IMG/VR virus record: IMGVR_UViG_3300009285_012492
Span: 1-20,865 of that record
DNA: 20,865 nt
Source: a virus
Reading direction: 5' to 3' (one strand)
Shown here: in pieces, positions 1,072 to 17,966 of the stretch
Layout of the letters: every line of letters starts with the position of its first letter
How positions within the stretch are numbered: position 1 is the stretch's first letter
Position numbers and translations under genes: made by a program
The notes under the pieces: model-generated
What the model saw: the letters and a program-made list of their open reading frames with translations, nothing else
Told to the model about the DNA's origin: nothing
Database searches by the model: none

Positions 1072-1764
1072 CTATTTCTTCCTGACAACCCACGGAAACG
1101 AAAAGTCGTTAGAAAAGTCATCATATTCTACAACCGTTTCAATTAAATCTTGAACACCCATTGTTACCATCTCATGCCATGTCTTCGGCGTCCAAGCGGA
1201 CTTGTGGTCTTTATCAATCTGGAGAACAGGAACAAAATCATTATGGGGTGTAATTACAGCTACAAAACCCCCAGGACGAGTCACACGAAGCCAACCACGA
1301 ATAATTTCCACCATTTTTTCAGTCGGAAAATGCTCTACAACATGATTGGCAATCACCAAAGAAAAGACATTATCACCAAACATACTCACATCTTCCGCAT
1401 TCACCCGAAGGTCGTACTTAATTCCACCCCCCTTGTCATATTTTTCTTGGTAAATCTTCGATGGGCAGTCAGTAGAAAGAAGCCAAGAGTGCCTTAGACC
1501 CGCACTTCCAAGATCCAGTCCAATCCCTCCTTGATGGCAGGCATAAATAGACCAAAATACTTGCCAACATCTCTGTTGGTAGCCCACATAATTTTGCGGG
1601 TGGCTGTACTTTAATCTTGTTGGGTCATCCGTAAGAAACCGCCAATACATATAACGGTCGAATTTGTCTGCTAGATAATGGTGGCACGTATCTACGCCAA
1701 TGGAAAGAATAGAATCCCACTTTCTCTCATCGAATGGAATGCTTGGTGGTGACTTCAGAATCAT
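1072..1764 (-). CDS. Class I SAM-dependent methyltransferase (Methyltransf_11-like)
   Basis: A 230-aa protein with SAM-binding motif I as GIGLDLGSAG (about residue 80), and further along the motif NHVVEHFP, typical of Methyltransf_11/UbiE-like enzymes. A WLRVTRPGGFVAVITP strand (post-motif III) follows. The start is ATG at 1764, forming ATGA with the stop of the upstream gene; the codon before it is TTG, so a TTG start at 1767 is possible but less likely. An AAGGAA site lies just upstream. It is the second of two adjacent methyltransferases of different subfamilies in the sugar module, so they probably methylate different positions or substrates. The acceptor is unknown. Confidence 0.78.
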   Translation of the reverse strand: MILKSPPSIPFDERKWDSILSIGVDTCHHYLADKFDRYMYWRFLTDDPTRLKYSHPQNYVGYQQRCWQVFWSIYACHQGGIGLDLGSAGLRHSWLLSTDCPSKIYQEKYDKGGGIKYDLRVNAEDVSMFGDNVFSLVIANHVVEHFPTEKMVEIIRGWLRVTRPGGFVAVITPHNDFVPVLQIDKDHKSAWTPKTWHEMVTMGVQDLIETVVEYDDFSNDFSFPWVVRKK

Positions 1765-2213
1765 CAATTCTTCCTTTTTCTAAACGTAAGTCTCCGCATG
1801 AATTCCAAAACTCTTCTTTGCATCTTTTGTGGCATGGACTCTACGGTTCCCTCTTCTTTCGCGCTTTCTTTTTCAGATTGTATTTTTATCTTTTTTGGCT
1901 TTTTCTTTCTAAGTGACATTAATTCGGCGTCTGTGTAGCTAGTCCATTTCTTCGGAAGGGAAACAGCATCTTTCTCGTAATAAATAGTGCCTGTAACCGC
2001 ATCATACTGGGTAAATCTTGGTGGGCTACCCCCATTATCAAGAGTTGCAAATCGAATTACTTCTTCCCATTGAGCCGATAACGATTTGCGAAAACTAACT
2101 GTGTAAAATCCCATAGGCCCTCCCCCTTTTCCATTAAGAGAGGAAGCCACATGAGAGATAAAAACACTCTTGTGGTCAGCCCCCGTGCTGACTGGATACT
2201 CTGTTTCTTTCAT
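1764..2213 (-). CDS. Hypothetical protein in the glycosyltransferase module
   Basis: A 149-aa protein of unrecognised family. The N-terminal two thirds (KSVFISHV, GFYTVSFRK, RFTQYDAVTGTIYY) look like short beta-strands. The C-terminal third is highly charged with Lys/Arg-rich stretches (SLRKKKPKKIKI near residue 100; RRLTFRKRKN at the end). The frame is open to an ATG at 2267, but that would overlap the upstream glycosyltransferase by 92 bp. ATG at 2213 reduces this to 38 bp and is preferred, although the ribosome site there is weak. Its stop forms ATGA with the next methyltransferase. It could be a small accessory or glycan-acceptor protein, but nothing in the sequence proves this. Confidence 0.6.
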   Translation of the reverse strand: MKETEYPVSTGADHKSVFISHVASSLNGKGGGPMGFYTVSFRKSLSAQWEEVIRFATLDNGGSPPRFTQYDAVTGTIYYEKDAVSLPKKWTSYTDAELMSLRKKKPKKIKIQSEKESAKEEGTVESMPQKMQRRVLEFMRRLTFRKRKN

Positions 2214-3162
2214 TGACGCAACCCGCACAAGAACAAGGAAGACTTGCTTCTGTCTTCCAGGAACCATCAGGCATCATCCATGTAACTTGCATTTCTGGAA
2301 TTCCATGTGAGTATTTTGGATGGGTATACTCAAACGGGTTATTCCAGAATTCCGGTGGAACTTTGAAGGTCTCACAATACATACCACGACTTGTTACCAT
2401 CCGATGATGTGCGTTTAATTCTGGACTGGCTCTGAATGTTGCTGACCAAGTATGCCAGACTTGAGGATAAGTAAGCCCGAATGTTTGATAACCATTCATT
2501 GCCAAAACACTCCCAAATTCCGATTCTTCATGGAAACTTTTGTATTCTTCTGGAAATGCTCCTGTCAGACCATGTTCTTTGTTCCACTTTTCTACGAGAT
2601 GAAACTTATCTATCGTAAACCCAAAGGCGCTTCCCGCAGGACACATGATACGTCCGGCTCTGGCTCCCCAAGAGTGCCGCCAAGACTCCGGTTTATGTAT
2701 TTTTGAAATGGGATCTCTTGGAGTCACCCTCATTTCATCGTGCATCGTTCCGATAGTAACAATTCTCTCCGAATCTTCTTCAGAACAGAAGTATTGGGGA
2801 TAACTGGCGCTTCCAACGTTATGATTAACTTCCAAAAAGCCAATCATAGACTTGTACCAGTCTTTCATCACAATTACATCATCATTGAAAAGGATTGTGT
2901 AAGGACTTTGAAAATGATTTACAAGAGCATTCCAAGCAGCAGGGATACCTCTATTTTCTGGAAATCGAATGAAACTTGTTTTGTACTTTAGCGCCAGTTT
3001 CTCTGTAGCTCTTCCACCATCAGGAGACCCATCATCCAAGAGAAGAATTTCAAATTCTCCTTCATATTTGTGAAGATACAAAGATCGAATAAGATATTCT
3101 GCCCTGCATGCTCCAGCATAAGTAGGAATTCCAACAGTCACTCTTGGATTTCCGAAATTCAT
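2176..3162 (-). CDS. Glycosyltransferase family 2 (GT-A fold)
   Basis: A 328-aa protein starting RVTVGIPTYAGACRAEYLIRS, a classic GT2 N-terminal strand. LLLDDGSPDGG (about residue 40) and TILFNDDVIVMKDW (about residue 90, the DxD-like metal/UDP-sugar motif) follow. The acceptor-side region FPEEYKSFHEESEFG resembles the E(E/D)xD motif used for the catalytic base. The C-terminus ends in a Cys cluster, CSCAGC, not seen in its paralogues. Its last residues before that (VTWMMPDGSW) parallel MTWLQDGEV in the enzyme at 3913-4728, suggesting duplication. It overlaps its upstream neighbour as ATGA (3159-3162) and has GGAG about 10 nt upstream. Donor and acceptor sugars are unknown. Confidence 0.85.
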   Translation of the reverse strand: MNFGNPRVTVGIPTYAGACRAEYLIRSLYLHKYEGEFEILLLDDGSPDGGRATEKLALKYKTSFIRFPENRGIPAAWNALVNHFQSPYTILFNDDVIVMKDWYKSMIGFLEVNHNVGSASYPQYFCSEEDSERIVTIGTMHDEMRVTPRDPISKIHKPESWRHSWGARAGRIMCPAGSAFGFTIDKFHLVEKWNKEHGLTGAFPEEYKSFHEESEFGSVLAMNGYQTFGLTYPQVWHTWSATFRASPELNAHHRMVTSRGMYCETFKVPPEFWNNPFEYTHPKYSHGIPEMQVTWMMPDGSWKTEASLPCSCAGCVNERNRVSSQHGG

Positions 3163-3926
3163 AGGATAAGTTCTCCTTTTCGAGACTCCAGATTCTTCAA
3201 GTACCTTTTTTCTGTTTCTTCAGGCTCTCGTCCCCATATTCTCAAGAATGTCTGATGATCCATTTCTTTACAGGCTTCAAGACTATTATTTGCAGCAATG
3301 GTTCCATGTTCGCGGTGCCAGAACATGGGAAACCACAAACGGTATCCATACTCTCCATTCATTGCAGCCGAACAGCAAAAATCGGAATCCTGGTAGTAGA
3401 CTTTATATTCTGTATTCCAGTATTTGTAAAGATCAGTTCTGAAAAGAAGACCACACCCGCAAAGTTGAGTAGCAGACTCAGAAATTTTTATAAGTGGGGT
3501 AGGAAGAGCCGAAATCTCGGAGACGGGAGCGGCCCGGTCCGGTTTCAAGCTCTTCCACCCCGCGTAACCCACCCAAGGATTGGCCTTAATAAAGGACTTC
3601 ATATGATACATGAATTCTTTCGGAAGAAAAGCATCGTTGTCCAAAAGAAAACAGTAATCGAATGACTCCGTATACGCAAATTGACCTATCTGACGATAAC
3701 TACTCCCCAATCCCTTGTAAGGATTTGCAGACCATCTAATGGGATTGGCTAATTTTCCGCTCCATTTCATTATCGTATCAAAAATCTCTCGGTATTCTTG
3801 ATCACCGTCTACATGCACTTGAACTTCAAACTCCTCAGCCGTTTGCCAGGATAAAGACTCTAAAACAAGATCCAGTTCTCCAGCACCATAACAAGGAATG
3901 CCAACAAGAATGTTAACGGATGACAT
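3159..3926 (-). CDS. Glycosyltransferase family 2 (GT-A fold)
   Basis: A 255-aa GT2-type protein. It has an N-terminal strand VNILVGIPCYGAGELDLVLESL, a VHVDGD element where its relatives have DDGS, and the metal-site strand CFLLDNDAFLPKEF (about residue 92). A later YYQDSDFCCSAAMNGE segment matches the acceptor-side acidic motif. It overlaps the neighbouring glycosyltransferases on both sides (14 bp upstream, 4 bp downstream), so the three are a translationally coupled set. It is shorter than its two relatives and lacks their C-terminal W-x-x-x-DG tail. It probably adds a different residue to the same glycan. The substrate is unknown. Confidence 0.8.
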   Translation of the reverse strand: MSSVNILVGIPCYGAGELDLVLESLSWQTAEEFEVQVHVDGDQEYREIFDTIMKWSGKLANPIRWSANPYKGLGSSYRQIGQFAYTESFDYCFLLDNDAFLPKEFMYHMKSFIKANPWVGYAGWKSLKPDRAAPVSEISALPTPLIKISESATQLCGCGLLFRTDLYKYWNTEYKVYYQDSDFCCSAAMNGEYGYRLWFPMFWHREHGTIAANNSLEACKEMDHQTFLRIWGREPEETEKRYLKNLESRKGELIL

Positions 3927-4728
3927 TAACAGGTCTTCCTCTCTTTACTTCTCCATCTTGAAGCCATGTCATTTCCATAGAAGAATTAAAAGAAACGTAT
4001 TTTTCGTACATCTGAGGCATTTCCCCACCCCACTTTTCCATAAATCTCTCTTTTGATTTTTTCATACGTATTTCCGCAAGAAGATTTGGATTCTGAGAAA
4101 ACGTAGAACCCCATTCATGCTCGATAACCGGCCAAGGAATGTTGTAAGAAAAAATGCCCCTGCCAGCCATGTGACATCCAAGATCTAGCTCTTCATAGAA
4201 AGATTGATAGCCTTCATCGAAGTAATTCAAATCTTTCCATAAGCCATAATCCACAGAAAAACAGAAGCCATTGGCACATAGACCGCGATGAGGAACTGAA
4301 AAATCGACTTCTCCCTCATATTTCTTTATATTATTATCTGTACAAACTAATTTCCCATCGACTCTGGCGTGCAAACCGACCATTCCTACAAGAGGGTTAT
4401 TTTCGTAGAAAAACTCAATTGCTTTTAGCCAGCCTTTTGTAACTTTGATGTCATCGTTGCAAACAACAACAAGATCACATCCTTTTTCTCCAAGATAAGC
4501 AATTCCATGATTCCAAGTAGCAGAAATTCCCATGTTACGTCGATGCTCACGAAATTCCACTTCATAATGCTTGCAAAGTTCTCGTAGAATCTGAAGTTCT
4601 CTTTCACAAGAACCGTCATCAACAAGAACAACAGCAGCAAAATCGTCTCCAGCATCTCTCACAGACTGCATGGCTTTGTAAAAACGCTCCGAACCATTAA
4701 TGGTTCCAAAGGAAATGCCAATTTTCAT
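3913..4728 (-). CDS. Glycosyltransferase family 2 (GT-A fold)
   Basis: A 271-aa protein with MKIGISFGTINGSERF, VVLVDDGSCERE (about residue 34), NMGISATWNHGI, and VVVCNDDIKVTKGW (about residue 88, the DxD-like site). FYEELDLGCHMAGRG provides the acceptor-side acidic motif. The ATG at 4728 has a good GGAG site 8 nt upstream. It is similar along its length to the enzyme at 2176-3162, including the C-terminal MTWLQDGEV tail, and is likely a paralogue. It begins 10 bp after the epimerase stop, so the glycosyltransferases are probably co-expressed with that sugar-nucleotide enzyme. Confidence 0.85.
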   Translation of the reverse strand: MKIGISFGTINGSERFYKAMQSVRDAGDDFAAVVLVDDGSCERELQILRELCKHYEVEFREHRRNMGISATWNHGIAYLGEKGCDLVVVCNDDIKVTKGWLKAIEFFYENNPLVGMVGLHARVDGKLVCTDNNIKKYEGEVDFSVPHRGLCANGFCFSVDYGLWKDLNYFDEGYQSFYEELDLGCHMAGRGIFSYNIPWPVIEHEWGSTFSQNPNLLAEIRMKKSKERFMEKWGGEMPQMYEKYVSFNSSMEMTWLQDGEVKRGRPVNVIR

Positions 4729-4738
4729 ATGCTTCTCC

Positions 4739-5779
4739 TTAGTACAGCTTATTTGCCCATGTTTTGGGCGTCTTCTCGTTTTCTATTTCGAGGTCATAAT
4801 ATCGCCACGGCTGATGTCCGAGCAATTTCGCCCATTGCACCATCTCAGTGAGACCATCTTTCAAAGACACACGATCCTCAAAACCAAGAAGACGCTGGGA
4901 TTTTTCAATAGTGCAATAAGCTTCTTTCACTTCCAAGGGACGAGGACTTGTATATCGCGGACGAAGATGCCCAGGACACCCCGAAAATTCCGGCGAAGGA
5001 CCGATTTCTCTCTCCAGAAAGGCTTCCAGAAGAACTCTGGCTGCTTCATTCAGCATGTAAGGATGGGCCGCACCAAGGTTAATTATCTGCTTATGTATGG
5101 GAGCGTCGTTGGCTTTAATCATACAAGGAAGAATATCCTCGTAATGAGAAAAGGCCCTGATTTGGTGCCCAGTTCCATAGATATAAAAAGGATGATTAGC
5201 GAGAAGACAATTGATCCATATTCCAAACACATTTCGATAGTAAGAATACAAGGACTGCCTTTTTCCGTAGATATTATGAGGACGAAGAATTACATACTCA
5301 AATCCATGCACACTGGAAAGAATCTCTGTGGATCTTTCCATAGCAGCTTTATTTACCGCGTAAACATCTTCCGGCATTCTAGGCAATTCTTCTGAGAATG
5401 GCGGCTCTTGTGCTCCATAAACACTCATGCTTGAGACCATAACTACACGCTTTACACTCTCTTTTATAGAACGAGATAAAACATTCATATAAGCCATGTA
5501 ATTACTTCTCGTACAAGTCGCCGGAGTAAATTGGCTTCTTCCTTCCGTGGCATCTGCGGCGTAATGATGAAGAACATCTATTTTCCCTATTTGATTAAAT
5601 AAACAATTCACTTCTTTGTAATCAGACAAATCAACATGAAAAAACTCCCAAGAATCTCCCTTATTTGCCACCGTTCCATCTGATAAGTTATCCACACCAA
5701 AAACCGTGTGCTCTTTTGCAAGTGCATCAGCAAGGTGGCTACCAAGAAACCCACAAGCACCCGTAACAAGGATTTTCAC
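4739..5779 (-). CDS. NAD-dependent epimerase/dehydratase (extended SDR)
   Basis: A 346-aa sugar-nucleotide epimerase/dehydratase of the extended short-chain dehydrogenase family. It has MKILVTGACGFLGSH (TGxxGxxG NAD site), VDNLSDG, VVMVSSMSVYG (catalytic Ser region) and YAVNK (YxxxK, about residues 140-144), then RPHNIYG, the conserved stretch of UDP-glucose 4-epimerase-like enzymes. The start is taken as GTG at 5779 because GGAGGG sits 7 nt upstream and the GTG overlaps the TGA of the previous gene (GTGA). The in-frame ATG at 5791 lies on the ribosome binding site itself. It likely supplies an NDP-sugar for the neighbouring glycosyltransferases. The exact sugar cannot be deduced. Confidence 0.88.
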   Translation of the reverse strand: MKILVTGACGFLGSHLADALAKEHTVFGVDNLSDGTVANKGDSWEFFHVDLSDYKEVNCLFNQIGKIDVLHHYAADATEGRSQFTPATCTRSNYMAYMNVLSRSIKESVKRVVMVSSMSVYGAQEPPFSEELPRMPEDVYAVNKAAMERSTEILSSVHGFEYVILRPHNIYGKRQSLYSYYRNVFGIWINCLLANHPFYIYGTGHQIRAFSHYEDILPCMIKANDAPIHKQIINLGAAHPYMLNEAARVLLEAFLEREIGPSPEFSGCPGHLRPRYTSPRPLEVKEAYCTIEKSQRLLGFEDRVSLKDGLTEMVQWAKLLGHQPWRYYDLEIENEKTPKTWANKLY

Positions 5780-6033
5780 GATACCCTCCATGCTCCAGGT
5801 TTATCCAGTTCAAAAGATATAATAGTATTTCCCTTCCCACCTCTGGTTCCAATAAAGAGAGGAACCCGCCCATCATTTAGAGACGCACCAGTAGCTACTA
5901 GCTCATCCACATAATTTTCCCCATGTTCTTTATATTTATCCCAATCAAGAAAAATGTCTCTAGCAACACCACCACCAATACCGCACATTTTCTTTTTGAA
6001 GAGACCGGCCAAAATATCAAAGTCATTATTCAT
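5776..6033 (-). CDS. Small hypothetical protein
   Basis: An 85-aa protein of no recognised family, MNNDFDILAGLFKKKMCGIGGG to the C-terminal FELDKPGAWRVS. It contains two Gly-rich turns (CGIGGGVARD; GTRGGKGNT) and no membrane segment. The ATG at 6033 is preceded by GGAG about 9 nt upstream; a TTG at 6036 is the only alternative. It overlaps the GT-B glycosyltransferase stop by 8 bp and the epimerase start as GTGA, so it is firmly embedded in the sugar module. The tight spacing supports a real gene. Its function is unknown. Confidence 0.6.
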   Translation of the reverse strand: MNNDFDILAGLFKKKMCGIGGGVARDIFLDWDKYKEHGENYVDELVATGASLNDGRVPLFIGTRGGKGNTIISFELDKPGAWRVS

Positions 6034-7336
6034 CAAAATACTCTCCTACAGTATCTTCTACTGTTGTGACACCATCACCACCAAACGACTTTTCATAATC
6101 ATGGACAATTGAAGGGTCTACCCCCAAACGATGAGCATTTTGAAGAAGATATTCCACTCTCTGAACACAAGCACCGTCACCATACTTCTCCAGAATAAGG
6201 TTTCTTCCTTGTTTAGCTCTGACTTTTGATTCGCAGTAGTTATCTCTTGTCCAATGAAGACCCTCAACAATGCTATCCATATCTGGTTCTGCCCACATAC
6301 CTGTTGTATAGAATGGATGATTGCATGGACGCCATCTGGATGTTTTCACTGGAAAAGCAGTCTTATCTGAAACAAAATCCTTCATACCAGTTTCGGGAGG
6401 AGCAATTACAGGAAGTTCCGTCAACATAGCTTCAGCAACCGTTCTAGCAAACCCCTCCCCTCTGGCCGGATGGAGCAAACAATGATGCCGATGATAAAGT
6501 TCGAGAATCCGATGCGAAGGAAGGTACATGCAAGAAAAAGAGATATTTTGGTTCTCTTTGCACTTATCCCGTATCCAGTGTGGTGACCCAAGATTTGGAA
6601 TGTGCATATGCAAATGTGCGCCACCATTTGGAAATGCTTTCTCGAAAGCTACTACTGCAAGATCCCACCCCTTTCTTTCATAAGCAGACGACACAAAAAG
6701 AATTTTGAACTCTCCATCTATGGTTCTTTCTTTTGGCGGCGGAGGAAAAGTCGATGTTCCAAGAGGAAGACCCACAACAAAGATAGGACATGTAGCACCG
6801 GCTTTCCTTGCCACTTCTCCACAAAATGTGGAAGGAGTTACTATGGCATCCACAAAATTAAGGAGACATCCCCATGTAGCAGGGTACTCTGTGCTTTCCC
6901 AGAGAAAGAACAACAGCAGTCTTTTTACAGGTATAGGAAGCATTGAAAGATCTGGTGTCATACAGAATGCCAACGCCACTTCAGAGTCCGGTTTCAGGTC
7001 TTTTCTTGACATAACTTCAGGAAGAGAGAATTGAATAGAATCCTTGCCATCTTTCCAAACCGGACGAATATCCCACTCTTTGCTTAAAAGTTCTTTTGCG
7101 AGAAGGGAACAAGAAAGGCCATAACCATCAGACTTGTTCCAGTAACCAGCCATTGTAACTTTTCTGGTGGGTGTAAGTGGCCCTTTCCGACATTGATTGA
7201 GAACCAAATAAGCTCCGAGACTGCGATCATCTATGTTGACTTGGTTATTTCCAACATAAATGAGTTTACGTCGTCTTGATAGCGAGACAGGAAAAGAGCA
7301 GACTTGGAGCTTTTCCTCCAACCTATCCGTGCTCAT
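6026..7336 (-). CDS. Glycosyltransferase family 1/4-like (GT-B fold)
   Basis: A 436-aa protein with a retaining GT-B signature. KILFVSSAYERKGWDLAVVAF (about residues 211-231) is the start of the nucleotide-sugar-binding half. HPARGEGFARTVAEAM (about 289-304) holds the E-x7-E motif (E294, E302) of GT4-type enzymes. The N-terminal half contains GYWNKSDGYG, a glycine loop typical of the acceptor domain, and LLFFLWESTEYP. Full GT-B length is present. It is the first gene of the sugar module after the small virion genes, 12 bp behind the 132-aa gene, with no terminator between. The sugar donor is unknown. Confidence 0.85.
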   Translation of the reverse strand: MSTDRLEEKLQVCSFPVSLSRRRKLIYVGNNQVNIDDRSLGAYLVLNQCRKGPLTPTRKVTMAGYWNKSDGYGLSCSLLAKELLSKEWDIRPVWKDGKDSIQFSLPEVMSRKDLKPDSEVALAFCMTPDLSMLPIPVKRLLLFFLWESTEYPATWGCLLNFVDAIVTPSTFCGEVARKAGATCPIFVVGLPLGTSTFPPPPKERTIDGEFKILFVSSAYERKGWDLAVVAFEKAFPNGGAHLHMHIPNLGSPHWIRDKCKENQNISFSCMYLPSHRILELYHRHHCLLHPARGEGFARTVAEAMLTELPVIAPPETGMKDFVSDKTAFPVKTSRWRPCNHPFYTTGMWAEPDMDSIVEGLHWTRDNYCESKVRAKQGRNLILEKYGDGACVQRVEYLLQNAHRLGVDPSIVHDYEKSFGGDGVTTVEDTVGEYFDE

Positions 7337-12282: not shown

Positions 12283-13884
12283 CTATTCTCTGCTCGCTTC
12301 CACATAAGTATTCCGAAGGTCTTTAGGCTTTCTCGCCGGAGTCTCCCCTTCCACATCGGCTTTTTTCTCCGGAGCAGTTTCTTCTTCTGTGTTTATTCCA
12401 CCAAGGTTTGTTTCCGTACCCGCAGGTCTCATAGGATTGGTGGTATCGTTGTCTATCTCTTCAAGAATTTGCTCCACATCCTCCGGTGGAGTTCCAAGAT
12501 CCCGAAGAGCTTGCGCCCTGCTTGTAATTCCAGAATTCAATTTTTGTGCAATCAGTTGCATCTCGATAAGACGATCCTTCGGTAGAGGACTGTCCCATCG
12601 GAGCTTCATACGCCGCCATAGAATAGGATTCTCCAATTTAATCTTGTTTTGAGCACTATCGGAACCGGCTTCCGGTCTGAATTTTACAAGACCGGATTCC
12701 TCCATCCACCGAAGCGCAAGATGTGTGATACGAAGAATGCCGTTCCCGTAAGTTCTCTGTTTTCTAACGGTCTTTTTCATCAAGGGCAGGTAGTTCATAT
12801 GAAGAGCCACACCGGATGTATTGGAAATCGGTTGGGTTTCTCCCAGAGCCCCAAGGGGAGTAGCGGTCAATTCGTGCATCGCCAGACGGAGAAGTTCAAG
12901 ATAACGAACGGTAGCCGGAAGATCGGAAATCAATTCCAGATTTTCCACTCTGGCATCTTTAGGAAGACCCCAAACTTTGTTTGCTCCTTTTTCGATGTTT
13001 TCAATTCTGGCCCCAAACACCAAGGTAGTCGGAGCACCGTGGTACTGAATGATATCCGATGTATCGGACAGCTTCTCGTTGAACTCTTCATTCAAGTCCG
13101 AGATATCGTCGATGTCACTTATGCCATACGAGCCAAAGCCAGGAAGATTATGAACATGAACTACGTTTATCTCTCCAAGAGGATTTTTAGAATCATCAAT
13201 GACAGCCCCATCTATGTACTGTTTTATTTTTTCTCGCGTGATGTCTTGTGTGTAAATTTGCCAGTTTATGGACCCCTTTTCATCCACATCGTAAATGGGG
13301 TAAGAAATCAAGCAACGAATCATTCGTCTCTTGTCATGCGGATCGTAGATAGGAAAAACCGTTGAGCTATCCAAAACAACCAGCTTTATCCCGGGCTCTC
13401 CGTTCTCCATTGTATCCCCGTCCACGTCCATTGTGACTTGAACGAAGCAATCACCGGTCACACCTCCCACCGTAGCCATGTCATAAACAAGGGTTTCCCT
13501 GTCATTCATCTCTTCCCAAACCGTGTCAGCAAGTTCTTTCAGACCCTCATTCCCTTGGAACGGTTCGAGAACCCAAAGATTGCCGACAAGAAAATCAGAA
13601 GAAAAATCCACAAATCTACGACAGTAATTTATTTTCTGCTTGCGTGTCTCTCCCAATGGTTGGTATCGCCAATGATCGCCGTTATAAAGACGCCAGAGTT
13701 TTTGATATTTCAATATCCGTTCTTGGTGGGATTGGGCTACCGTAGTTGGAAGTCCCCCAAGTTTTTGAAGGTTCTGCATAAAATGAGGAAGGAGATCGTT
13801 TCCGCCGGAGGAGGCGTACTTATCCGTGAAGACCGCCCCCCCAAATCTCCGGCGTTTGAAATCGAGATCATCTTTATGGGGCAT
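12283..13884 (-). CDS. Portal protein (SPP1 gp6-like)
   Basis: A 533-aa portal protein, the dodecameric ring at the capsid vertex through which DNA is packaged. The N-terminal third has YQKLWRLYNGDHW and KINYCRRFVDFSSDFLVGN, typical of the Phage_prot_Gp6 group. The central region carries VVLDSSTVFPIYDP and NVVHVHNLPGFGSYGISDIDDISDLNEEFNEKLS (the crown/wing segment ahead of the tunnel helices). Residues near 355-400 (ELTATPLGALGETQPISNTSGVALHM) contain the usual S-G-x-A-L motif. The C-terminus is a disordered acidic tail. ATG at 13884 overlaps nothing and follows the TerL stop by 3 bp; AAGGG lies upstream. Confidence 0.88.
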   Translation of the reverse strand: MPHKDDLDFKRRRFGGAVFTDKYASSGGNDLLPHFMQNLQKLGGLPTTVAQSHQERILKYQKLWRLYNGDHWRYQPLGETRKQKINYCRRFVDFSSDFLVGNLWVLEPFQGNEGLKELADTVWEEMNDRETLVYDMATVGGVTGDCFVQVTMDVDGDTMENGEPGIKLVVLDSSTVFPIYDPHDKRRMIRCLISYPIYDVDEKGSINWQIYTQDITREKIKQYIDGAVIDDSKNPLGEINVVHVHNLPGFGSYGISDIDDISDLNEEFNEKLSDTSDIIQYHGAPTTLVFGARIENIEKGANKVWGLPKDARVENLELISDLPATVRYLELLRLAMHELTATPLGALGETQPISNTSGVALHMNYLPLMKKTVRKQRTYGNGILRITHLALRWMEESGLVKFRPEAGSDSAQNKIKLENPILWRRMKLRWDSPLPKDRLIEMQLIAQKLNSGITSRAQALRDLGTPPEDVEQILEEIDNDTTNPMRPAGTETNLGGINTEEETAPEKKADVEGETPARKPKDLRNTYVEASRE

Positions 13885-13887
13885 TTT

Positions 13888-16800
13888 TCACCCTTTTAAG
13901 AACATGTTCTCTTTCAACGAGGAAACCCTGACATTCGCAGGCTCTCTGGAAGCAAAACGGGCCAAAGCAAGCGAACAACAGTTATGGACTAGAAACCCTC
14001 CAGCAAAGTATTCGTGGCAACCTTCCACAGCTAAATTATAAACAGGAGTTTTTCTGTAGACAACTGAAATGTTTGCCACACGAAACGGAGCAACAGAAGG
14101 AACTCTTTCTGTACTTATTTCGACTGTATCGTGTATAGATAACGTGTCAAGACGTACAAAACCACGACCATCCACGAAAACAGGATGATTCGGAGTCCCT
14201 TCCAGGATATACCCATTTTCTGTGGTAACTTTAATCAAAGAATCAACCGTTCTTGTTTGAGAAGAAACCAGGACTCTCCGCAATCCAACTCTTGTCCAAA
14301 CCAAGCTGTTAGTTTCCACTTTCTCTATAGGAACATCCCCATCAACCGTTTTTATGGGAGTACCGGCAGGAAAACAATAATCGTCATGGGCATCTGGTTC
14401 ATTAGGTGCCTCACACAACATACACTCTCCCACATAATCCTTCTCCAAATCAAGCATCTGTTGTCTGAATCTTCTCCACTCCGCAGTTTCGTCACATCCT
14501 TCATTGGCGGGATAGGTAAGTCGTCTTCCCTCCATATCCGCAGACAGGGACTTGAAAGCGTTGCTTTTCCATTGCATCGTAAACGTCACGGGTTCCACGA
14601 CCACATTCTGAAGCATCCCCGCCAACCGATCTGCCAGAAGGGATTCTTTTGTGGAGTCTATGGACAACTTTACCACGTTAAATTGTTTAAGATATTCCAC
14701 GATCTTCGTGAATTGTTTTTCGTAGTTGTCCCCGAAAAGTTCAAGCCATCCCAATACATGCGTTTTGTAGCTCTCATACTCCACCGTACTCTCGACGCTC
14801 ACCCCCTTGAACATTTCCACCGGGTGCTCCCAATCCACTTCCAGGATCGTGACCACCGTGGAATCCCTGATTCTTCCAAGGTCGATCCCGGCTACATGAA
14901 CCCCTGCTTTCTTCGACCCAAAGACATAGCCATATCTCTCGTCATAGCCGTTCTTCTCGAATTCTTTCCAGGCATCCCCGGCCAAGCCGCACTTCTCGAA
15001 AGACTCGTCTGCGATAAACATGCCGCGCTCTGTAAGCCACATGATTCTGTAACTTCTTTTGAATTCATCGGAATTTTCTCCGAGTCTTCGTTTTTCTTTT
15101 TCGATATACTTCGCATAGAACGGACTGTGTTTCTGGCACTCCACATAGTCATATTCAAAATGATTTTTGGCCCCGCCCGCCACCGCCAGTTGCTTGTTCC
15201 TTCGAATCGCCTTGTAGAATTCCCTCTTGCGGATTCCGGGTGTGCCGATTTTCACAAGAGTCCCAGATACGGCGGCAACCATCGGATGGATTCCCTGCCG
15301 GATCTTCTCGTCTCCGATATCCTGAGTTTCATCCAAGATGGCAACATGGTAGCTTGCACCCTCCACATGCGCTTTCTCACTGGCCGAACGGGATACTACA
15401 TAGCTGCCGTTTGATAACTGGCATGTATCCCCGTTGCTGGTGGTAAAAATCAAACCCGCTTCCCGAAGAATCATCGAGCTTGTCTCCGTCATCAAAATGG
15501 TGCGGATTTTGTTGTACAGAAGATTGCTCTGATCCTGCTTGGGTGCGTAAACCCCGAACTTAGCACCCTCTTTGAATCCGACATAAAGATGGCGGATTTT
15601 ACGATTGAATCTCTGATCATCCAAAAACATCTCCGCCAGCTTGGGAAGCATGACCATCGCGGAAGCGCACAAGCAAGCGACCGCCGTGCTTTTCCCCGAA
15701 TTATGCACACAGAAACCCTGTGAGATAAACCACCCTTTTTTCGGAAAATAAGCGTCATAGGTCGGTCTAACTCCCACAGATCTGATAGATCTGACCCGCG
15801 CCCAGCAGAGATGCTCTCCGTCCTCTCCAATGAGCGCATGCGGTCGAGAACATCTTCTACTGTTCCCTTTTCCACCTCGTTTGTACTTTTTCAGAAAATC
15901 GTCGATTTGTTTCAATACTCTCTTACACGATTCTTCTTTACCAAAAATCAGACCGATACTTTTGAAAAATTTCTCACAATTAGCATCACCAGAAACAATA
16001 AGACGTCGGAATAGCTTGCCGTCCCGGTTTTTTTGCATGCGTTCTCTTTTTAACCGGGATGGGATTCCAAAAAGCAGCAATAAAGATTGGCAGTATCGTG
16101 CGTAGGTCTCGTTGTTGCCGCAACATAATCCCAACTCTCCCGATTCTCTTCCACCAGAAGTTGAATGTATGGAGATATATCCATCCGCAGCCCAGAATCT
16201 ATTCAAAAAATGTTTTTGGTATGATCTTGGAAAAGAAAAAATATCCAATGGAAATCCACAATCTGTCCGTAGACAACGAATAAAAAACCGTAGAGAATTT
16301 CCGTCAGGTTGCCTGTTCCGTGAGGTAAAGAGTAAATCATAACCCTTTCCTTTTTTGTATTTTTTGATTTGCACGTCTGGAAACTCAGCTTGCACGATTC
16401 TTGTAACTTCATCCAAATACAAACTGGACACGCTTGTAAATTTTATTGATTGTCCTTTTTTCACAGCATTGAAACAGTACCCATCTGCCGTGAGATACCC
16501 AAGCAATGCACACCGATCTTTGGTAAGACGCACTTTTCCAGAAAAGGTTTTAGTATGTCCATGCTTGTCAAAGCAGTCAAATTTACCGGAAAAGACAGTT
16601 CTTTTTCTCGGCCCAGAAAGACTTTCCAAAACCGCCACTTTGTCTCCCCGCTTCAAATCCTCCAACCGGGTGAACCCCTTCTCCGTGCGAAATGGATGAT
16701 TGGCGGTCGCCAGGAGCGTATGTTGACCAGCGGAAATCTCATAACATTTTTGTTTTCCGGTGCTCCATGCTCCTTCATAGTCTTCAATCCGGCAGGCGGT

Positions 16801-16947
16801 TCCATCTCGACGAAAAATCACAGATCCTTCCGCCAAACATTGCCGGGAAAACAGTGCCGTAATCTCTTCCCCTTCGCATTCCAGGATGGATATGTACACC
16901 CTTTTCATAAACGGGATCTGATAGGGAAAAAGTTTTATTTCCGCCAT
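13888..16947 (-). CDS. terL: Terminase large subunit with two inteins
   Basis: This encodes the packaging motor ATPase and headful/site nuclease. The precursor is 1019 aa from ATG 16947. Removing inteins (residues 37-416 and 858-989) leaves about 507 aa, a normal TerL size. Exteins join to ALFSRQ-SGKST, the deviant Walker A of terminases. Walker B is VAILDETQD (D539, E540). The RNase H-like nuclease carries AGIDLG (D689), LSID (D764) and AHDDY (D855, D856). The start is unresolved. The frame stays open to ATG 17490, which has a strong AAGGAG site. That would add 181 hydrophilic, junk-like residues overlapping a better-looking basic ORF. STEEICDKLVLLAE just upstream of ATG 16947 resembles genuine terminase sequence, and the RBS at 16947 is poor. 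The stop lies 3 bp before the portal gene. Confidence 0.9.
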   Translation of the reverse strand: MAEIKLFPYQIPFMKRVYISILECEGEEITALFSRQCLAEGSVIFRRDGTACRIEDYEGAWSTGKQKCYEISAGQHTLLATANHPFRTEKGFTRLEDLKRGDKVAVLESLSGPRKRTVFSGKFDCFDKHGHTKTFSGKVRLTKDRCALLGYLTADGYCFNAVKKGQSIKFTSVSSLYLDEVTRIVQAEFPDVQIKKYKKGKGYDLLFTSRNRQPDGNSLRFFIRCLRTDCGFPLDIFSFPRSYQKHFLNRFWAADGYISIHSTSGGRESGELGLCCGNNETYARYCQSLLLLFGIPSRLKRERMQKNRDGKLFRRLIVSGDANCEKFFKSIGLIFGKEESCKRVLKQIDDFLKKYKRGGKGNSRRCSRPHALIGEDGEHLCWARVRSIRSVGVRPTYDAYFPKKGWFISQGFCVHNSGKSTAVACLCASAMVMLPKLAEMFLDDQRFNRKIRHLYVGFKEGAKFGVYAPKQDQSNLLYNKIRTILMTETSSMILREAGLIFTTSNGDTCQLSNGSYVVSRSASEKAHVEGASYHVAILDETQDIGDEKIRQGIHPMVAAVSGTLVKIGTPGIRKREFYKAIRRNKQLAVAGGAKNHFEYDYVECQKHSPFYAKYIEKEKRRLGENSDEFKRSYRIMWLTERGMFIADESFEKCGLAGDAWKEFEKNGYDERYGYVFGSKKAGVHVAGIDLGRIRDSTVVTILEVDWEHPVEMFKGVSVESTVEYESYKTHVLGWLELFGDNYEKQFTKIVEYLKQFNVVKLSIDSTKESLLADRLAGMLQNVVVEPVTFTMQWKSNAFKSLSADMEGRRLTYPANEGCDETAEWRRFRQQMLDLEKDYVGECMLCEAPNEPDAHDDYCFPAGTPIKTVDGDVPIEKVETNSLVWTRVGLRRVLVSSQTRTVDSLIKVTTENGYILEGTPNHPVFVDGRGFVRLDTLSIHDTVEISTERVPSVAPFRVANISVVYRKTPVYNLAVEGCHEYFAGGFLVHNCCSLALARFASREPANVRVSSLKENMFLKG
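13981..14376 (-). other. Mini-intein 2 in TerL nuclease motif
   Basis: A 132-aa in-frame insertion. It begins CFPAGTPIKTVDGD (splicing block A, Cys1) and has GTPNHPVFV (block B, TxxH). It ends YNLAVEGCHEYFAGGFLVHN (blocks F and G), followed by Cys as the +1 extein residue. The size matches a minimal Hint domain without an endonuclease. It interrupts AHDDY-CCSLALA, the third acidic motif of the terminase nuclease, so the nuclease is inactive until splicing. All residues needed for class 1 splicing (Cys1, block B His, terminal His-Asn, +1 Cys) are present. Confidence 0.93.
15700..16839 (-). other. Intein 1 with LAGLIDADG endonuclease in TerL Walker A
   Basis: A 380-aa in-frame insertion. It begins CLAEGSVIFRRDG (block A, Cys1) and contains TANHPF (block B). 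It ends YDAYFPKKGWFISQGFCVHN (blocks F and G), with Ser as the +1 extein residue. Between the splicing halves are two dodecapeptide-like motifs about 100 residues apart, LLGYLTADGY and FLNRFWAADGY. These identify a LAGLIDADG (DOD) homing endonuclease. The acidic residues of both motifs are retained, so it may be active. The site SRQ-SGKST lies inside the ATPase P-loop. Confidence 0.95.
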
Positions 16948-17003
16948 CGTCTCCGCGAGAAGAACCAGCTTGTCACAGATTTCTTCCGTGGAGTACGTAC
17001 AGA

Positions 17004-17459
17004 CTAGAAGAGCTTTTTCCGGCCCCTGCCGAACAGGCCCTTGCTCTTTCTTCCGAATCCCAGCCGAAGACCCGTCGGGCGGAATCCCTTCATTGCATGG
17101 CGTGCTACTTTCACCGCCGGATGGAAGTATCCCACTCTCCGAAGAAGCGTTCGCCGGATGTTCCCCGGCACCCGGAACGGTCTCTTGATCGCCGTGATCC
17201 CGACTTTCTTGAGAAGGCGTCTCTTGAGAAGCAATCCGCCTGTCAAGGCTTTCGCGGATACTCCCCGGAATCGAATCAACTGCGCCGGACGAAGAGCCCC
17301 GAATCTCACCTTTGGACCGATGGCTCCCGTTGCTCTCGACCCCGGCAGTCTGGCTTTGATCCGGCTTGCGATTTTCTGCGAGAGACTCTTCGGCCCTGCT
17401 CTTCTTCCGCCGAACCCTCGTCGCCTTCCGCCGCCCCTTCTTCCGCCCCCTCTCGCCAT
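17004..17459 (-). CDS. Highly basic protein upstream of TerL (151 aa)
   Basis: A 151-aa protein with extreme Arg/Lys/Gly content. It starts MARGGGRRGGGRRRGFGGRR, followed by amphipathic basic segments such as LLLKRRLLKKVGITAIKRPF and RRVGYFHPAVKVARHAMKGF, and ends GRGRKKLF. ATG at 17459 has AAGGAAG with suitable spacing and is preceded by a run of seven A. It is overlapped along its length by the upstream extension of the TerL frame (offset +1), so only one may be translated as drawn. Hydrophobic periodicity favours this frame as real. It may bind DNA or act as a small-terminase substitute, but no family is recognised. Confidence 0.55.
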   Translation of the reverse strand: MARGGGRRGGGRRRGFGGRRAGPKSLSQKIASRIKARLPGSRATGAIGPKVRFGALRPAQLIRFRGVSAKALTGGLLLKRRLLKKVGITAIKRPFRVPGNIRRTLLRRVGYFHPAVKVARHAMKGFRPTGLRLGFGRKSKGLFGRGRKKLF

Positions 17460-17490
17460 TTTTTTCTTCCTTTACTACCGGCTTCCCCAT

Positions 17491-17534
17491 TAAGATTCTC
17501 CTTATAAGAGAAGCATACACGCAAGGCTCCAATC
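17491..17534. promoter_or_regulatory. Divergent strand-switch intergenic region
   Basis: These 44 bp separate the leftward virion operon from the rightward queD gene. They hold the AAGGAG site for ATG 17490 on the minus strand and the palindrome CTTATAAG (17501-17508), with flanks TCTC/GAGA that extend it imperfectly. Promoters for both directions should lie here or just inside the neighbouring genes, but no convincing -35/-10 pair is visible. Confidence 0.35.
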
Positions 17535-17966
17535 GTGTACAGAGTCGTGAAAAGAATACCCTTCTGCTACGGCCACAGGCTCGTTCACCACACTGGCAAG
17601 TGCCGGTTCCTCCATGGCCACAACGCCACAGCAGAAATCACCGTGGAATCCGACAAGCTCGATTCCACCGGGTTCGTCATCGACTTCGGGGTTATCAAGG
17701 AAAAAGTCAAGACACTCATCGACTTCGAGTACGACCACACCATGCTTCTCTGGGAGGGAGATCCGGTCGTTTCGTTTCTCAAGGACGCCGGGGAGAAGTT
17801 CCGTCTCTTCCCGTTCCATCCCACCGCCGAAAATCTGGCGGAAAGGATTCATAATCAGGTCCGTCTGTTGCTGCCGGAGGTTCTTGTCAGGTCCGTTGGA
17901 ATTTTCGAGACCGGGGATTCCAGGGCAACATATATGGAAAAAGAATACAAGGAGAACGAGGAATGA
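17535..17966 (+). CDS. queD: 6-carboxytetrahydropterin synthase / PTPS family (QueD-like)
   Basis: A 143-aa complete pterin-synthase fold protein. Zinc ligands His14, His27 and His29 are visible in FCYGHR and CRFLHGHN. Cys23 is the catalytic Cys of the CxxxHGH motif, Asp67-His68 form the DH pair, PTAENLAERI is the conserved helix, and Glu125 in GIFETGDS is the pterin-anchoring Glu. All active-site residues are intact. In QueD the enzyme converts dihydroneopterin triphosphate to 6-carboxytetrahydropterin on the way to preQ0. In phages this feeds 7-deazaguanine DNA modification or host queuosine. GTG at 17535 is the start, with AAGG upstream. A eukaryote-type PTPS function is possible but less likely in a phage. 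Its stop overlaps the next gene as ATGA. Confidence 0.9.
   Translation: MYRVVKRIPFCYGHRLVHHTGKCRFLHGHNATAEITVESDKLDSTGFVIDFGVIKEKVKTLIDFEYDHTMLLWEGDPVVSFLKDAGEKFRLFPFHPTAENLAERIHNQVRLLLPEVLVRSVGIFETGDSRATYMEKEYKENEE

Follow-up and report, generated by a model that had tools for sequence, protein, structure and literature searches.

How does a phage terminase large subunit (TerL) come to carry an intein in each of its two catalytic centres, and is such a double interruption a control on DNA packaging or the trace of mobile elements? The question is raised by positions 13888-16947 (minus strand) of a 20.9-kb IMG/VR virus contig (the window, meaning the whole stretch of DNA that was analysed). 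A single unbroken frame of 1019 codons runs there from an ATG at 16945-16947 to a stop at 13888-13890, and encodes a precursor of 1019 aa before splicing; upstream of that ATG the frame is still open. An earlier, sequence-only reading had placed in this interval a TerL with inteins at SRQ/SGKST and AHDDY/CCSLALA, and its coordinates were right, with intein domains recognized at both points by Pfam and NCBIfam profiles. In all likelihood this is an ordinary phage TerL holding two unrelated, separately acquired class-1-type inteins, which probably splice constitutively.

The terminase itself is formed by three exteins on the minus strand. The N-extein (36 aa, 16840-16947) has ALFSRQ at its C-terminus; the middle extein (441 aa, 14377-15699) comprises the remaining ATPase (GKST, ILDET, and KIGTP) and most of the RuvC-like nuclease (AGIDLG, SIDSTK, and AHDDY), and the C-extein (30 aa, 13891-13980) begins with CCSLALA. 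Joined without both inteins, they gave 507 aa, the spliced length that had been proposed. The spliced protein matched PHROG terminase families (phrog_2, 3e-16) and was aligned with nine intein-free relatives at 31-43% identity, gapless at both junctions; later, the intein-free relatives aligning across both junctions came to about 60 distinct groups. The continuous alignment and the survey of empty sites that the sequence-only reading had suggested as checks were thus both favorable, empty sites being common.

The ATPase of a large terminase was recognized by its Walker A (SRQ-SGKS), Walker B (ILDET), and coupling (KIGTP) motifs, and the RuvC-like nuclease by the ligands D309, D384, and D475-D476, which are conserved across the TerL family. 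The family profile places AHDDYxDSLALA on GHDDIVMSLALA of G20c TerL, so that HDD corresponds to H427, D428, and D429, residues which are catalytic in that enzyme (PMC5389553). Only the terminase part of the precursor was modelled with confidence, and this structure matched the terminases of D6E, HK97, T4, and Sf6 and the G20c/P74-26 domains; both inteins were poorly modelled, and intein 2 was misaligned, because the alignment lacked intein homologues. Intein 1 splits the P-loop between the Arg and the Gly-Lys-Ser, while intein 2 is located two residues past the metal-binding Asp. Considering that the P-loop and the nuclease motif are both interrupted, neither the ATPase nor the nuclease centre would be active before excision.

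Directly 3′ of terL lies the portal protein gene (12283-13884, minus strand; PF05133, 1e-25). Portal homologues were also found near terL in intein-free relatives, and this adjacency, in the window as well as in the relatives, supports the identity of TerL. A QueD-like 6-pyruvoyl-tetrahydropterin synthase gene (17535-17966, plus strand; phrog_2389, 8e-36) adjoins the packaging genes on the opposite strand, and a run of ORFs at 1764-7336 (minus strand) resembles, by eye, glycosyltransferases and a sugar epimerase. Homology to TerL is still seen for about 17 aa before the assumed ATG at 16947 (YSTEEICDKLVLLAET; window 16947-17532, minus strand), and for this reason the true N-terminus is uncertain. 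No ATG, GTG, or TTG occurs in the TerL frame upstream of 16947 until 17490. An Arg/Gly-rich ORF of 151 aa (17004-17459, minus strand) ends with CGG AAA AAG CTC TTC TAG, and TerL is read in the -1 frame with respect to it; this ORF was matched by nothing in Pfam or PHROG, and none of the fetched loci contained a homologue. The start of TerL may involve a -1 frameshift, a rare start codon, or an indel.

The uncertain start codon would suit an assembly chimera or a decaying gene, in which the inserts stay in and the gene is non-functional. The contig is also metagenomic, and the searches yielded no close relative against which this exact phage could be checked independently; no other copy of it was returned by an exact pattern spanning the second (nuclease) junction. 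We regard this explanation as scarcely credible, since the 1019-codon frame is uninterrupted, all the TerL and splicing residues are intact, the junctions are clean, homologous inteins occupy the same sites elsewhere, and the portal gene is in place.

Intein 1 (380 aa, 15700-16839, minus strand) is a LAGLIDADG intein within Walker A. It has the class 1 Hint signature, with a Cys nucleophile at position 1, block B TANH (TxxH), a VHN end, and Ser at +1. Both acidic LAGLIDADG motifs are retained: the first is LLGYLTADG (intein residues 112-120, 16480-16506, minus strand) and the second is LNRFWAADG (residues 212-220, 16180-16206, minus strand). In Pfam it matched Intein_splicing (4e-15) and LAGLIDADG_3 (PF14528, 8e-15), and its predicted fold, of moderate model confidence, resembles PI-SceI and I-DmoI. 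Judging by these features, intein 1 probably retains the ability to home. Used alone as a query against viral contigs, it gave no matches, and its homologues were found with a degenerate DNA pattern spanning the P-loop junction. Two TerLs of the same family from IMG/VR, L197 and L198, have their P-loop intein at exactly the same position, SRQ/SGKS. That of L198 (357 aa, LAGLIDADG) is 37% identical to intein 1 over its full length (E=7e-72), and that of L197 is a mini-intein of 159 aa with ends homologous to intein 1. Both TerLs carry a second intein, located at or after Walker B and not in the nuclease (the contig of L198 stops short of the nuclease site), so double-intein TerLs recur within this family.

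Intein 2 is a mini-intein of 132 aa (13981-14376, minus strand) that follows the catalytic HDDY (HDDY/CCSLALA). Its class 1 signature consists of Cys at position 1, block B TPNH, a VHN end, and Cys at +1, and it matched PT-HINT in Pfam (3e-7) and TIGR01445 (intein_Nterm, 2e-7) and TIGR01443 (intein_Cterm, 2e-3) in NCBIfam. Together with the Intein_splicing match of intein 1, these results answer the Hint-profile search proposed earlier, and the intact signature residues agree with the view that both active sites are interrupted by apparently splicing-competent inteins. No endonuclease domain was detected in intein 2 by Pfam; it has 132 aa versus 255-354 aa in several relatives, whose internal region is missing from it. 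Judged by its sequence, intein 2 is related to an intein that is widespread at the nuclease site, and its own internal endonuclease domain has been lost.

The residues that follow intein 2 are Cys-Cys (TGT TGT, 13975-13980, minus strand), and the second of them, at +2, is Asp in 59 of the 61 scored relatives. We considered that Cys for Asp at +2 might abolish the nuclease and rejected it, since the active G20c nuclease has Met at this position and the catalytic HDD precedes the intein. Cys is already present at the +1 of the nuclease site in 11 of 62 groups of intein-free relatives, which indicates a site pre-adapted for intein entry. The vicinal Cys pair, together with a block-F Cys, could make intein 2 a domesticated redox lock beside a parasitic intein 1. 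Intein 2 has no endonuclease, and in Mycobacterium smegmatis DnaB, of two inteins, the endonuclease-less one is stress-responsive (PMC6195587), a precedent that ties endonuclease loss to responsiveness. Nevertheless, we judge such a lock to be very unlikely: the +2 change is a single substitution in one lineage, the block-F Cys is common across the family of intein 2, and the Met of G20c suggests a non-catalytic position that may simply drift.

The family of intein 2 comprised at least 278 viral loci in IMG/VR, in a scan built on a five-sequence subset, the nine-sequence alignment being too divergent. Of the 80 loci that were kept, some of them near duplicates, at least 64 have, by their flanking sequence, the intein in the C-terminal [HD]xxD motif of TerL; the registers are adjacent ones, DH/CDALRY and NH/CIDALRY among them. 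On this sequence evidence, inteins have a major hotspot in the TerL nuclease site. The nuclease-site inteins of L010, L098, L107, and L109 share in their middle region an NGIxxKKGxxGT-like motif, and this region had no endonuclease family match in Pfam.

It was also possible to find P-loop and nuclease-motif inteins together in four unrelated metagenomic TerLs, with P-loop registers GPAG/SAKT (L011), GGGK/S (L124), WGK/T (L165), and GGVG/SGKT (L171), the last one being shared with the window. Other pairs occupy the P-loop and nuclease motif I (L186), nuclease motifs I and III (L184), or the ATPase upstream of Walker B and motif III (L112); these samples are biased by the search patterns. The sequence-only reading had called the double occupation unusual, which is too strong in view of the hotspot, of the recurrence of double-intein TerLs, and of the published Microcystis phage Mic1. 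Within the same broad TerL family, L014 (Bacteroides phage BS162P1) and L015 have an intein at other sites of the ATPase domain. In the two phages checked, TerL was a hypothetical protein (BS162P1_00018) or unannotated, and annotators may miss such intein-bearing TerLs. The P-loop codons of the L087 TerL are separated by about 300 nt of inserted sequence containing stop codons (about 316-616); this insertion is absent from the close relative L029 (94.5% identity downstream) and had no Rfam match. It may represent an unclassified intron in this hotspot.

The recurrence of the double-site arrangement in the four unrelated TerLs and in Mic1, with each intein blocking one catalytic centre, could be read as a two-step timing control, the function put forward by the sequence-only reading and proposed for Mic1 too. 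Slow or cue-dependent splicing would set the onset of the ATPase and the nuclease, and packaging would be held until late infection; the stress-responsive, endonuclease-less intein of DnaB gives it a parallel (PMC6195587). No sign of conditional splicing is visible in the sequence. Related phage TerL inteins tested elsewhere splice fast without a cue (PMC5050341), nearly all relatives of the window's TerL are free of both inteins and evidently package unlocked, and in L197 and L198 the second intein that accompanies the one in the P-loop lies elsewhere than in the window, as independent invasion predicts. Taken together, these points make timing control a very unlikely explanation. Very improbable indeed is the broader proposal that selection across phages favors TerLs occupied at both the P-loop and the nuclease motif, with the nuclease-site intein as a redox- or time-sensitive lock. 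If true, the lock, which in the window has a Cys-Cys junction, would order TerL, putting its motor and DNA-cutter states in a fixed sequence.

The reading that we prefer is that of two independent invaders of an ordinary TerL. Each intein would excise itself from the translated precursor through a Cys1 thioester, transfer to the +1 Ser or Cys, and Asn cyclization. The excisions would restore the P-loop of the ATPase (SRQ-SGKST) and the motif of the nuclease (HDDY-CCSLALA), and the mature TerL of 507 aa would arise after both. The inteins would have entered independently at conserved motifs, intein 1 probably still homing and intein 2 now being devoid of endonuclease. Their location at active sites may be explained because the DNA there offers the most conserved homing targets, and their maintenance because imprecise loss there would be lethal. 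Splicing, homing, and fast unregulated excision are all inferred from the sequence. Both sites are empty in most relatives of the window's TerL. The GC3 of the exteins was 0.58, and those of inteins 1 and 2 were 0.39 and 0.30, respectively (Fisher p=2e-8 each); this lower GC3 in the inteins than in their host gene is consistent with a foreign origin. The persistence of intein 2 without an endonuclease fits pure selfishness less well, and it could have been retained, domesticated, or carried along by the homing of intein 1.

The window's TerL is a further case of conserved sites being repeatedly invaded by mobile elements, a phenomenon that has been outlined before. It extends the single published case, Mic1, to a recurring pattern across unrelated terminases, in which both catalytic centres of TerL are recurrent intein targets, sometimes co-occupied, and the nuclease motif forms an extensive hotspot that has been little described. 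The single, double, and empty terL alleles form a natural set in which to ask whether these inteins are parasites only or tuners of packaging-motor assembly.

By comparison with known systems, the TerL of the crAss-like Delta phage OBYQ01000140, which is in three pieces with two inteins (PMC7886860), resembles that of the window in its number of inteins, but they are of the Hint-Hop type and it shows TAG recoding. Mycobacteriophage terminases have inteins at seven sites of the ATPase domain, two of them within the P-loop; five TerL or terminase-like inteins were tested and all spliced readily in E. coli, and the two tested for endonuclease were both active (PMC5050341). TerL1-a and TerL1-b have Walker A inteins like the window, and splicing was demonstrated for TerL1-b, whereas all the mycobacteriophage terminase inteins of that study are in the ATPase domain and none is at the nuclease, where the window has one (PMC5050341). 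L198 is comparable to the window in the identical SRQ/SGKS point and in a P-loop intein homologous along its whole length; L197 and L198 differ from it in their second intein, at or after Walker B, and L197 also in having a mini-intein in the P-loop. The literature searched contained no report of a P-loop and nuclease pair. A close counterpart is the Mic1 TerL, described in 2020 with an ATPase-domain intein and a nuclease-domain intein and a proposed control of packaging (PMC7156551). No similarity between the Mic1 and window TerLs was detectable (tblastn, E 1e-5), and the ATPase-domain intein interrupts the coupling motif in Mic1 (LLTG/C..N/TPKG) and the P-loop in the window. The window's TerL nevertheless has the Mic1-type arrangement of an ATPase-domain intein plus one in the nuclease HxxD/HDD motif. 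As in the window, the ATPase-domain intein of Mic1 (MN013189) has a homing endonuclease and its nuclease-domain intein is a mini-intein, located, as we checked in the sequence, at the very site of the window (DHL/C..N/CDALRY in Mic1, DDY/C..N/CCSLAL in the window).
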